In this document: positions 13,878 through 33,475 of the stretch, in pieces | Position numbering within the stretch: the first letter of the stretch is position 1 | How the letters are laid out: each line of letters begins with the position of its first letter | From: Candidatus Coprocola pullicola | GTDB lineage: Bacteria; Bacillota; Clostridia; Lachnospirales; Anaerotignaceae | Reading direction: 5' to 3' | Assembly (NCBI GenBank): GCA_018715395.1 | Contig: DVLQ01000039.1 | Location: 1-39,338, forward strand | Length of the DNA stretch: 39,338 bases | The notes under the pieces: model-generated | Database searches by the model: none | Seen by the model: only the letters and a program-made list of their open reading frames with translations | What the model was told of the DNA's origin: nothing | Translations under genes and position numbers: made by a program

Positions 13878-14059
13878 AATAGTATTAAGAAATAAAAAAG
13901 TTTTTGTTTCATATGAAAAATAGTATACTAAAAAATAAAATTGTTATAAATGAATTTGTTAAGTTTATATGAAAATAAGAATATAACAATATTATAAAAA
14001 GTGATGATTCTATTTTCTTTATTGAGAGATAATGAATAAAAAATAAATTTATTATACTT

Positions 14060-14102
14060 TTGACATAGTTCTGTTATTGATATTATACTAAATAACAGAA
14101 TC
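14060..14102 (+). promoter_or_regulatory. Promoter with dyad flanking the -10, upstream of the element cluster
   Basis: TTGACA (14060-14065), 18 nt, TATACT (14084-14089). The -10 sits inside a perfect 10-bp inverted repeat, TTCTGTTATT/AATAACAGAA (14069-14100). TAACAGAATC (14093-14102) also equals the terminal sequence of the IS6-like family, so this may be a remnant element end. It can pair with GATTCTGTT at 14107. It may have been the native promoter of the PLD-like gene before two insertions pushed it 700 bp away. The preceding stretch 13878-14059 shows nothing else. Confidence 0.45.
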
Positions 14103-14106
14103 GCAT

Positions 14107-14551
14107 GATTCTGTTAACTTAATATGAAAATAAAAGTACAGAAAAGACTTTTAAAAATACAATCATAAAAAAGAGCATACAAATAAAAGTGAACACCTGA
14201 AAAAATTTTTTAATATAAAAACCAGTGTTTTGCTTGTTCTTAAGAGTATGTAACATCTGCAACAGAAGCAGGTGCTTGTCTGAACAAATAAGAATGGGTA
14301 TGGATAAAATCATAATAAAACAAAAAATTAGAAATGATATCCAAAGCAGATTCAATACCCATAATTATCTTTTCCATAGCAATAAAGCCGATGAAAAAAG
14401 CAATGAGGACAAGAAATAGAAAAATCTTTAAAAGAAATGATGATATTTATGCACAATAACAGTTCCTTTGTGGGAGAAAAAGTTTTTGTTATAATTTTAT
14501 TGTACTTTCAATAAGAAACTGTTGCCTGTATCATTTTAACGTAACAGAATC
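14107..14551 (+). mobile_element. Miniature IS6-like element, copy A (445 bp)
   Basis: Starts GATTCTGTTAACTTAATATGA and ends with the inverse, TCATTTTAACGTAACAGAATC. Inside are the two ends of the 1.2-kb parent (25631-26832) joined by deletion, including a transposase C-terminal remnant read on the minus strand (14119-14355). It has no target duplication. Copy B sits beside it; without B and its duplication, A would end 26 nt before the PLD-like ATG. Its right end contains an extended -10 (TGTTATAAT) facing outward. Confidence 0.85.
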
Positions 14552-14560
14552 CAATTTCAT

Positions 14561-14816
14561 GATTGTGTTCATTGAATATGAAAATAAAAGTAGAGAAATG
14601 CGCGACAAATATATTTTTGACGTCTGTATTTATATTTTCTCCAACGCCAAAAAGAATGAGAAAAGCAATGAGGACAAGAAATAGTAAAATTTTTAAAAGT
14701 AATGATGATATTTATGCACAATAACAGTTCCTTTCTAAAAGAAAAAGTTTTTGTTATAATTCTATTGTACTTTCAATAAGAAACTGTTGCCTATATGATT
14801 TTAACATAACAGAATC
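14561..14816 (+). mobile_element. Miniature IS6-like element, copy B (256 bp)
   Basis: A 256-bp non-coding element with terminal inverted repeats (GATTGTGTTCATTGAATATGA and GATTTTAACATAACAGAATC). It is flanked by the 8-bp duplication AATTTCAT (14553-14560 and 14817-14824). Four bases (AAAT) and then AGGAGG, the ribosome site of the PLD-like gene, follow. It has the same length and internal junction as copy E at 33220. The outward extended -10 TGTTATAAT near 14752 could drive the next gene. Confidence 0.92.
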
Positions 14817-14841
14817 AATTTCATAAATAGGAGGAGAATGC

Positions 14842-16254
14842 ATGAAATTAAGGAAAAGAAAGAAATATTTTTTATTACTGTTGTCAGCGCCCATTTTTTT
14901 TAGTATTATGACAAAACGTCCAGAGGGAACCTCCATAGAAAGTTCTTATAAAGGAGCTTCTGCACTTACATTTTTATATGACTTAACTTATGAAAAAAAT
15001 GGAGAAATCATAAAAGAACAAAATATACTTTCAGCAGAATTGGATATGATTGAGCAAGCAGAAAATTTTATTTTATTAGATTTATTTTTATATAATGATG
15101 CTTACAATAAACAAATAGAAATTTATCCTCAAACAACAAAAATCATAACAGATGCATTGATTGCAAAAAAGAAACAAAAACCAGAAATGGATATTATATT
15201 TATTACAGACCCTATCAATGGTTTTTATGGAGCTTATGAAGAAAAAAATGCAAAGGCTATGAAGGAAAATGGTATCGTTGTAATAGAAACAGATTTAGAT
15301 AAATTAAAAGATTCCAATGCTTTGTATTCGGGATATTATCGTTTTTTTGTAAAACCATTTGGAAACAATGGGAAAGGATGGATAAAAAATCCTATGGATG
15401 AAACGGCACCGGATGTTAACATACGTTCTATATTAAAATTAGCAAATTTTAAAGCAAATCATAGAAAAACTTTGATTACAGAAAAAGAAGCATTGATTGC
15501 TTCAGCAAATCCTCATGACGCTAGCAGTTATCATTCTAATGTAGCTGTACGGTTTCAAAGTGATGTGATACAACAAATGATAGAAGGGGAACGAACTGTC
15601 GCAGATTTTTCTGGTACTGTGTTGCCAAATTTAGTTTATAAAGGTACTGCAAATACATATTTACCGGAAGTTCAGGTACGATATTTGACGGAAAGAGGAA
15701 TTTTTAATGGATTAATACAAAACATTCAACAAGCACAAAAGGGGGACTCGATTTACATAGGTATTTTTTATATTACAGATTTTGATTTATTAGATGCCAT
15801 TGAAGAAGCTGATAAAAGAGGGGTTTCCATTTATATTGTAGCAGACCCAAACAAAGATGCTTTTGGAATCAACAAAGATGGTTCTCCTAATCGTACAGTG
15901 TTAACACAACTGCATAAAAAAAGTGAAAATATACAAATTCGCTGGTATGATACCCATGGAGAGCAGTATCATACAAAAATGGCTTATTTTGATTTAAAGC
16001 AAAAGAATGTTGTAATACTTGGTTCGGGAAATTATACAAGAAAAAATTTAAAAGGATATAATTTAGAAGCGGATTTAGAAATTGTGACATCAAAAGAAAA
16101 TGCTTTTTCAAAAGAAGTATTTGATTATTTTCAGAGGATATGGCAAAATCAATCCGGAAACTATACAGTGCCTTTTGAAAACTATGAGGAAAATAGTATC
16201 ATAAAAAAATGGATTTATTATATACAAGAAACGACAGGACTTTGTACCTATTAA
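14842..16254 (+). CDS. Membrane-anchored phospholipase D-like protein
   Basis: 470 residues. A basic N-terminus and short hydrophobic stretch (KKYFLLLLSAPIFFSIM) form a signal anchor, so the body is probably outside the membrane. Two PLD-superfamily HxK halves are visible: ANHRKTLI followed by ASANPHD near residue 205, and QYHTKMAYF followed by GSGNYT near residue 376. Each lacks the classical Asp in its usual place, as in cardiolipin-synthase-like and minimal PLD proteins. It may hydrolyse or transfer phospholipid head groups or act as a nuclease. ATG 14842 is preceded by AGGAGGAG. Two miniature elements were inserted one after the other just upstream of this ribosome site, so present expression may depend on element promoters. 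Confidence 0.8.
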   Translation: MKLRKRKKYFLLLLSAPIFFSIMTKRPEGTSIESSYKGASALTFLYDLTYEKNGEIIKEQNILSAELDMIEQAENFILLDLFLYNDAYNKQIEIYPQTTKIITDALIAKKKQKPEMDIIFITDPINGFYGAYEEKNAKAMKENGIVVIETDLDKLKDSNALYSGYYRFFVKPFGNNGKGWIKNPMDETAPDVNIRSILKLANFKANHRKTLITEKEALIASANPHDASSYHSNVAVRFQSDVIQQMIEGERTVADFSGTVLPNLVYKGTANTYLPEVQVRYLTERGIFNGLIQNIQQAQKGDSIYIGIFYITDFDLLDAIEEADKRGVSIYIVADPNKDAFGINKDGSPNRTVLTQLHKKSENIQIRWYDTHGEQYHTKMAYFDLKQKNVVILGSGNYTRKNLKGYNLEADLEIVTSKENAFSKEVFDYFQRIWQNQSGNYTVPFENYEENSIIKKWIYYIQETTGLCTY

Positions 16255-18598: not shown

Positions 18599-18995
18599 GA
18601 TTGTGTTATGTTAAAATGATATAGGCAACAGCAGTACAATAAAATGAACAAAAACACTGTTTGTCCCGGAAAGAAACTGTTTCTATGCATAAATATAAAA
18701 ATTACTTTTAAAGATTTTGTTATTTCTTGTCTATATTGTTTTTCTTATTGGTTTTATCGTTATGGAAAAGATAATTATGGGTGTGAAATCTGCTCTGGAT
18801 ATTCTTTCTAATTTTTTGTTTTATTGTGATTTTATCCATAACCATTCTGATTTGTTCGGACAAGACTCTGCTTTTGTTACAAGTGTTGCATACTCTCAAG
18901 AACAAGCAAACCACTGGTTTTTATTTTAAAAAAGTTTTTTAATCTCACTTTTATTTGTATGCACTTTTTTGAAATTACATTAAATTAACAGAATC
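18599..18995 (-). mobile_element. Miniature IS6-like element, copy C (397 bp)
   Basis: Ends GATTGTGTTATGTTAAAATGAT (left) and ATTAAATTAACAGAATC (right), flanked by a perfect 8-bp duplication ATTATTTG (18591-18598 and 18996-19003). It is in reverse orientation, so the end that faces genes in the other copies faces the padR gene here, again 4 nt from AGGAGG beyond the duplication. An internal deletion fuses the transposase N- and C-terminal parts into a 70-codon frame (18717-18929), which is not a real gene. Confidence 0.93.
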
Positions 18996-25630: not shown

Positions 25631-26832
25631 GGTTGTGTTAACATAATATGAAAATAAAAATGCAGAAAAAAATTTTAAAAATGTAATTCCAAAAAAGAGC
25701 ATATAAATAAAAGGGAACACTTGAAAAAATTTTTTAAACCAATGCTTTACTTGTTCTTGAGAATATGTAAAACCTGCAACATAGGCGAGTGGGCGTTCGA
25801 ACAAATCATAATGGCTATGGATAAAATGATAATAGAACAGAAAAATTGGAAATCAGATTCAAAACAATGGAATCCTTTTTTCGTTTTGTAATAAGATTTA
25901 AAAGTTTTATGGAAAGATTCTATCACATGATTACTGATATCATCATGAAAGCAATGGTAAACATGATATTTTGATTTCGGATAGACAAGCATAAGCGGCT
26001 AAATATCAAGACCATCTGCAACAACGATAATAGGAATTGTATCTGTGATATTGCGAGGCTTTTTAAAGAGTGTAAGAGCAGTATTGCTGTTTGTTACACC
26101 AGATAAAGCAATCACAACTGTTGTTTCAGAATCCAGCAATATCCAAATATCATGCTGCTGTTTTTTAATTTTAATATCAGTTTCATCAACGTGCCATTGA
26201 TTAGAGTATAGGTTAGACTTTTGCAGAAGAAAGTAAAAAAACGGTTTTGAAAAAAGCTGCAAAAGGGCAAATCCAACCATAAATAGAAATGTGAAAATAC
26301 AAACCGCAAGAATATTTGTATCTGCCTAAAAGAGCAGTAGACCTCAAATAAAGCGTAAGAGCATATAAAATAACATTTGGTGCAAAACGAAATATTTTAA
26401 AAGAAACTCTGGTAAATGCAGGAAACTTCTTTTTATAAAAGTTCAAATTAACAATAGAAACTTTAATAGAGTGGTTGGTCTTTTTAGAATTACATTTAAA
26501 ATGAATAAAAGAGTGGTATTTGTGTCAAGCAAAAATATTTTTGCCACAAATAGGGTATTTTGGGCAGTATTTGTCAGACGTTTTTATTTTGTTAGAATTT
26601 AAAGTAAAACAATGGTAACATTTGCAACAAATATATTTTTGACGTCTGTATTTCTCTTTCTCATAGCGATAAAGGAAATGACAAAAACAATGAAGATAAG
26701 AAATAGTAAAATTTTTAAAGGTAATTTTTATATTTATGCATAGAAACAGCTCTTTTCTGAGAGAAAATGTTTTCGTTTTAGGATACTTTCAATCAGGGGC
26801 TGCTGTCTATATCATTTTAAACGAATAGAATC
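25631..26832 (-). mobile_element. IS6-like insertion element, 1202-bp parent copy D
   Basis: Ends GGTTGTGTTAACATAATATG (left) and ATCATTTTAAACGAATAGAATC (right), flanked by the perfect 8-bp duplication CTATTTGA (25623-25630 and 26833-26840). An 8-bp duplication is typical of IS6. Copies A, B, C and E share its ends with internal deletions. The right end again faces a gene whose AGGAG starts 4 nt after the duplication. Transposase is on the minus strand and broken, so mobility of the family must depend on a copy elsewhere. Confidence 0.93.
25700..26710 (-). pseudogene. IS6/IS240-like DDE transposase, decayed
   Basis: Minus-strand pieces in several frames. There is an N-terminal zinc-ribbon-like region (KCYHCF, KYCPKYPICGKN), then FRFAPNVILYALTLYLR (helix-turn-helix region). 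The catalytic core follows: WHVDETDIKIKKQQHDIW (first Asp), VVADGLDI (second Asp) and SNHVIESFHKTFKSYYKTKKG (Glu). The C-terminus FYYHFIHSHYDLFERPLAYVAGF resembles the HSGL..TPAQVAG end of IS6 proteins. At least three frameshifts separate these. Boundaries are approximate. Confidence 0.85.
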
Positions 26833-33219: not shown

Positions 33220-33475
33220 GGTTCTGTTAACTGAACATGAAAATAAAAGTACAGAAATTTGCGACAAATATATTTTTGATGTCTGTATTTATCTTTTCTA
33301 TAACCATAAAGGAAATGAGAAAAGCAATAGGGACAAAAAATAGAAAAATCTTTAAAAGTAATTTTTATATTTATGCATAGTAACAGCTCCTTTCGAGGAG
33401 AAACACTGTTTTAGTTCATTTTGTTGTACTTTCAATAAGGAGCTGTTGTCTATACCATTTTAACGTAACAGAATC
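33220..33475 (+). mobile_element. Miniature IS6-like element, copy E (256 bp)
   Basis: Starts GGTTCTGTTAACTGAACATGA and ends ACCATTTTAACGTAACAGAATC. It has exactly the length and deletion junction of copy B. Flanks are AATACAAT (33212-33219) and AATACATT (33476-33483), an 8-bp duplication with one later change. Four bases (ATAT) then AGGAG, the ribosome site of cbiA, follow. A perfect inner stem AACAGCTCCTT/AAGGAGCTGTT sits near the right end. Confidence 0.92.

Follow-up and report, generated by a model that had tools for sequence, protein, structure and literature searches.

How does a gene come to carry two related mobile elements, one directly behind the other, immediately before an intact ribosome-binding site? 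This arrangement is found in the 39,338-nucleotide stretch of Candidatus Coprocola pullicola analysed here (contig DVLQ01000039.1, positions 1 to 39,338; the window), where positions 14099-14842 of the forward strand read directly, in order, AATCGCAT, element A, a C, AATTTCAT, element B, AATTTCAT, AAAT, AGGAGG, AGAATGC and ATG. A (14107-14551, 445 nt) is a MITE bounded by terminal repeats (TIRs) GATTCTGTTAACTTAA... and ...TTTTAACGTAACAGAATC, with numerous relatives in the genome, the closest 87% identical; its left target duplication (TSD), AATCGCAT at 14099-14106, has diverged and agrees with AATTTCAT at 6/8 positions. The single extra C (14552) between the right end of A and the next target copy places A 13, not 12, nt from the Shine-Dalgarno (SD) sequence. 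The middle copy of AATTTCAT (14553-14560) is at once the right TSD of A and the left TSD of B, and matches the right copy (14817-14824) at 8/8 positions. B (14561-14816, 256 nt) is a MITE of a second subfamily that keeps part of the zinc-ribbon coding region of a transposase, and full-length relatives of it lie in the window (33220-33475) and in C9. The SD, AGGAGG at 14829-14834, which we take to be the target motif, begins 12 nt past the right end of B, and 25 nt separate that end from the ATG.

The gene behind the elements (14842-16254, forward strand) encodes a 470-aa PLD-domain protein (PF13091, 85.1 bits). An ortholog (51%) in the genome G005 has no element in front of it, and the gene was not found in the four genus relatives searched, so the genus offers no empty site of this gene. 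The first-pass annotation had read A and B as nested insertions at one ribosome site and had placed the right end of A (14551) 26 nt from the ATG once B and one AATTTCAT are removed. The distance is confirmed by the positions, read directly; the two elements are instead stacked in tandem, neither inside the other.

We find that the distance from element to SD follows a strict rule. Among 113 distinct right ends with flanking sequence, and with the motif taken as a hexamer matching AGGAGG at 5/6 positions or better, the motif lies at exactly 12 nt (the 8-bp TSD plus 4 nt) in 77, where ≈0.4 would be expected; no other offset holds more than 8 right ends (background, 0.0036 per offset), and none of 92 left ends has the motif at this distance. 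The orientation is fixed as well. Elements lie anywhere between 18 and 28 nt from the ATG but at a constant distance from the motif, which identifies the SD-like motif, rather than the start codon, as the anchor. About one-fifth of the right ends have no good motif, some of these being inner ends of tandems or ends with decayed flanks.

Had insertion occurred anywhere, with selection keeping only the copies upstream of genes, insertions within coding DNA would be rare among the survivors, as indeed they are; but selection would not give a precision of one base, in which 77 ends share offset 12, every other offset accounts for 8 at the most and left ends have none. Copies at terminators and in coding DNA stand at that offset too, or one base away from it. 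We give such untargeted insertion practically no credence. A constant spacing would also follow if AGGAGG were itself part of the mobile unit and the 12 nt were internal to the element. AGGAGG, however, is separated from the terminal repeat by the 8-bp target duplication, and the other flanking bases vary. The leader of rpsP is decisive on this point: it is without an element in the genus relatives G004, G001 and G003, each with its SD (AGGAGG or GGGAGG) present, and is filled in the genome of the window (G000). The element-free leader of G004 reads ...TTTTTTTAGATAAATTTGCCAGTAAGAAACATAGGAGGTGAAAAAAATGGCAGT, and the G000 leader is closely similar, with the element 12 nt before AGGAGG. Since the SD is in place in the element-free relatives, it predates the element at rpsP, and a mobile AGGAGG retains hardly any probability at all.

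The rule is not confined to gene starts. At three terminator-like hairpins (L055, L161 and L219) and in coding DNA (L199), copies keep the 12-nt offset from a G-rich motif exactly or to one base. Because these motifs are not SDs, the data favour recognition of a DNA motif rather than of translation. Of the ribosome site proposed in the first-pass annotation, the fixed target therefore stands, with AGGAGG acting as DNA and not through ribosome function. By simple arithmetic the centre of the 8-bp target lies ≈11 bp, or one helical turn, from the centre of the motif, which would fit a protein that reads the motif on the same DNA face. That the address is read instead by an RNA, namely the anti-SD end of 16S rRNA, and not by the transposase protein is, in our estimation, very improbable indeed.

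A and B belong to a large family. The right-end pattern TTTTAAYRTAACAGAATC, with up to 2 mismatches, occurs 125 times in the 3.0-Mb genome, as against 8 times for the reversed control, and matches to A and B across the genome are 71-97% identical. The copies fall into size classes of ≈250 bp (B type), ≈445 bp (A type) and 1.2-1.5 kb, the last containing an antisense transposase gene full of stops. Where both ends are present (92 copies), the 8-bp TSDs agree at 8/8 positions in 29 copies and at 7/8 in 37, for 66 at 7/8 or better. A, B and the longer pseudogene copies have both ends of an insertion sequence (IS), no transposase open reading frame, and the TSD length and target of the IS, as MITEs do. 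The elements precede genes of every kind, many of them core-looking, e.g., rpsP and apparent aminoacyl-tRNA ligases. On contig C61 (L066/L270), an element of ≈560 bp lies directly upstream of the rpsP SD, past the end of an apparent ffh.

Three further copies are found in the window. The first (18599-18995, reverse strand) has an SD, AGGAGG, exactly 12 nt from its right end and a TSD, CAAATAAT, that agrees at 8/8 positions; the second (25631-26832, forward strand) is a full-length, 1202-bp IS relic with an antisense transposase pseudogene and a perfect TSD, CTATTTGA, followed by TAAA-AGGAGA; and the third is the B-type relative at 33220-33475 (forward strand), with a TSD of 7/8 and an SD, AGGAGA, exactly 12 nt from its right end. 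No intact transposase was found in the G000 genome, and two candidates for further IS6 copies (C79 and C185) were set aside as they look IS3-like. Structured-RNA readings of both elements were likewise rejected: the folding of B equals that of shuffled sequences (z 0.05), that of A is only mildly better (z -2.6), and the window has no Rfam match at the gathering threshold.

Several neighbouring observations concern the family at large. Three contigs of G003 (C2, C3 and C32) end ≈105 nt inside element ends, which suggests that this genome has many near-identical, perhaps active, full-length copies that collapsed in assembly. Five copies (L154, L156, L140, L023 and L058) lie at the SDs of apparent IS200/IS605-type transposase genes, whose proteins start like MGIMDIYSLSHTKWNCKYHIAFTLKYRRK, and have near-identical flanks, AAAATAGT/AAAATAAT; either paralogous SDs have been hit several times or another IS has carried the MITE with it. 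At L008 (G000 C42:15469-15486), an element adjoins an incomplete, degenerate second copy of the 5' end and SD of a Nif3-like gene.

The parents of these elements can be recognised in other genomes. An intact copy in G023, a family relative, encodes a 353-aa IS6 transposase (NF033587, 159.7 bits, cut-off 125; PF13610, 83.1 bits) with an N-terminal zinc ribbon of the IS1/IS1595 type that matches NF050000 and PF03811, and perfect 8-bp TSDs, characteristic of IS6, flank intact ISs. By sequence, then, the parents are IS6-family ISs with an extra N-terminal zinc ribbon. In G004 most copies obey the spacing rule; in G003, G012 and G023 some do. A class-wide search yields ten distinct intact ISs, picked solely by a perfect 8-bp TSD, in 8 of which the motif lies at 12 nt; these figures cover zinc-ribbon members of IS6 only. 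Their transposases are mostly ≈42-56% identical to the G060 query; nine of the ISs measure 1250-1351 bp and the tenth 1188 bp. One IS (L267) is a clear exception to the rule with a perfect TSD, and another (L225) has only GGGAGC in place of a good motif. A search of plasmid records returns one relative, a Cetobacterium (Fusobacteriota) copy that obeys the rule and reads TAAATTAA-IS-TAAATTAA-TAAA-AGGGGG, and phage records contain none. These findings point to a transposase clade of Clostridia and Fusobacteriota for which the SD motif would serve as a general address, directing insertion into gene leaders in one orientation.

A rule of this kind accounts for one insertion before a gene, and the junctions at 14551-14824 speak to the second. 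A inserted first and B afterwards, each in its turn, because AATTTCAT occupies the inner junction as well as the right flank; this 8/8 agreement is reached by about 0.1% of shuffled pairs, and the AGGAGG that A would have needed at the correct distance, had it arrived after B, is lacking. The first proposal, that a fixed target was hit repeatedly in the same orientation, is therefore borne out by AATTTCAT at both junctions and by the target rule genome-wide. The same proposal had set against itself an ancestral allele in which A and B are one composite element, and this is a fair alternative, as composite-like tandems do occur in the genome. In the C123 tandem the outer TSD is AAAATAGT on both sides and the inner junction is a foreign CTATTGTT; in C214 the outer pair is CAGAAAAT/CAGAAAAC and the inner junction an unrelated TATTGATA; and units are fused directly in C153 and C71, so composite or amplified tandems exist beside serial ones. 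The inner junction of A and B, in contrast, holds no foreign 8-mer but the local target, and no second A+B unit was found in the genome. We regard it as very unlikely that A and B arrived as a single unit assembled at another place.

The two elements are also more alike than chance arrivals need be. They have 195 nt in common at 86% identity. Their right arms, 87% identical in the last 190 nt and ≈92% in the last 160, share rare variants and are mutual nearest neighbours among 112 copies. The claim that the second hit gives independent support for a fixed target thus holds for two insertions at one target, not for two unrelated arrivals: so close a kinship of the right arms means that they have undergone gene conversion or come from a common source. 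The same likeness could mean that B arose from A by local duplication, through unequal exchange between the 8-bp flanking repeats followed by divergence; such an exchange would likewise leave three identical 8-mers, and amplified units are known at C107, C119 and C12, whose tandems are of the amplified or fused kind and not serial insertions. Yet B cannot be A with a deletion, since the left part of B holds IS-internal zinc-ribbon coding sequence that is absent from A, making it a different subfamily, of which full-length relatives exist elsewhere; and the likeness of the right arms is more simply explained by gene conversion. Local duplication is, on balance, quite unlikely, and we retain serial insertion.

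Another stack, at C155, has three similar TSDs, AGAAAATA, TAAAAATA and CAAAAATA. With ≈125 elements and an assumed figure of 2,700 SDs, ≈3 double hits would be expected by chance, and so such stacks need no hotspot. A fourfold array at L063 (G000 C12:8569-9352) is of another kind: the right end of the element, the SD and the first codons are repeated together, and the array reads MKCI stop and then the full gene, an amplification of the element plus the gene start.

To the left of A we find traces of a third copy. This degenerate element, Z (≈13952 to ≈14102, forward strand), is outlined by a left-end HMM match at 13955-13988 (6.9 bits) and a right-end HMM match at 14048-14102 (7.2 bits) that reaches the last position of the model; the two lie within one 150-bp stretch, on the same strand and in the right order. 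Neither score is reached by any of 2000 dinucleotide shuffles; known copies aside, nothing in the window matches the right-end model better, and the left-end match is the top one lying outside any known element. Z has no recognisable TSD and sits 4 nt too close to A, and a small deletion must therefore be assumed. The locus has probably been hit at least three times.

Z changes the reading of a promoter-like sequence, TTGACA-18-TATACT (14060-14089, forward strand; 11/12 positions), ≈750 bp from the ATG, which had been taken for the native promoter of the PLD-domain gene displaced by the insertions. Because it falls within the right end of Z, it is probably not ancestral to that gene, and this candidate promoter may have been born from an element end. 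A conserved outward promoter in the right ends of the family was considered and rejected, a perfect TATAAT being present in only 6/113 copies; TATCAT or TATTAT at -23 in 83 of them is no better conserved than its neighbours and has a poor -35, and we do not claim it as a promoter.

We consider it highly likely that this explanation is right as a whole: zinc-ribbon IS6 MITEs, directed to an SD-like motif, stacked serially as Z, A and B. All three, Z as a remnant, would be non-autonomous derivatives of zinc-ribbon IS6-family ISs, with transposase presumably supplied in trans from copies now dead or absent. This transposase group would select G-rich, SD-like DNA (consensus AGGAGG), the motif being read by the transposase, perhaps by its zinc ribbon, such that 4 bp separate the end of the 8-bp target duplication from the motif, and the right end of the element is always on the motif side. 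As AGGAGG outside coding DNA is mostly an SD, surviving copies would mostly lie between promoter and SD, in one orientation and with SD and start codon intact, and survivorship would concentrate copies at SDs. Every insertion would restore the target (8-bp copy, 4 bp and AGGAGG), and the same gene could then be hit again, the newer element landing between the older one and the SD; at 13952-14834 the order of arrival would be Z, A, B.

The closest described relatives are the ISs of IS6 clade h, found in Clostridia, with transposases of 340-350 aa that carry an N-terminal zinc finger and lengths of 1230-1460 bp (PMC7986276). The elements described here resemble them in the following features: the IS6 DDE transposase with zinc ribbon, GRTTCTGTT-type TIRs, an 8-bp TSD, and intact relatives of ≈1.19-1.36 kb mostly from Clostridia, but differ in the strict 8+4+AGGAGG rule and the fixed orientation. 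The text of the IS6 review names no SD or motif target for clade h, and the stem 'ribosom' appears nowhere in it (PMC7986276). Two IS6-family MITEs, of 227 and 336 bp, are catalogued there (PMC7986276). B (256 bp) and A (445 bp) are likewise short, with both IS ends and no open reading frame; here, by contrast, there are ≈125 right ends in a single genome, in several subfamilies and mostly in gene leaders. Among the small repeats of pneumococcus, RUP probably owes its mobility to an IS acting in trans. BOX, RUP and SPRITE are similar as small interspersed repeats near genes, but differ in their ends and parent IS, and the parts of the source consulted describe no fixed SD distance for them (PMC3049150). 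A search of the open-access literature turned up no SD-targeted IS or MITE, and SD-motif targeting by a MITE family and its parent ISs seems to be undescribed so far.

Many IS families choose their targets loosely. In the 'safe-haven' targeting of Tn7 and of yeast Ty1/Ty3, the choice of target spares host genes, Tn7 using one site and the Ty elements tRNA genes. The elements described here, although not of the same family, also spare host genes by target choice, and the gene is spared because the family and its parent ISs aim at the ribosome-binding-site motif itself, inserting 12 bases before it; the address, unlike that of Tn7 or the Ty elements, is a short motif present at very many gene starts. 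Use of such a gene-start motif would be a new form of bacterial safe-haven targeting. It explains how more than 100 elements can sit in gene leaders, those of core-looking genes included, and how one gene can be hit repeatedly, and it suggests a way of placing cargo directly upstream of ribosome-binding sites in laboratory bacteria.
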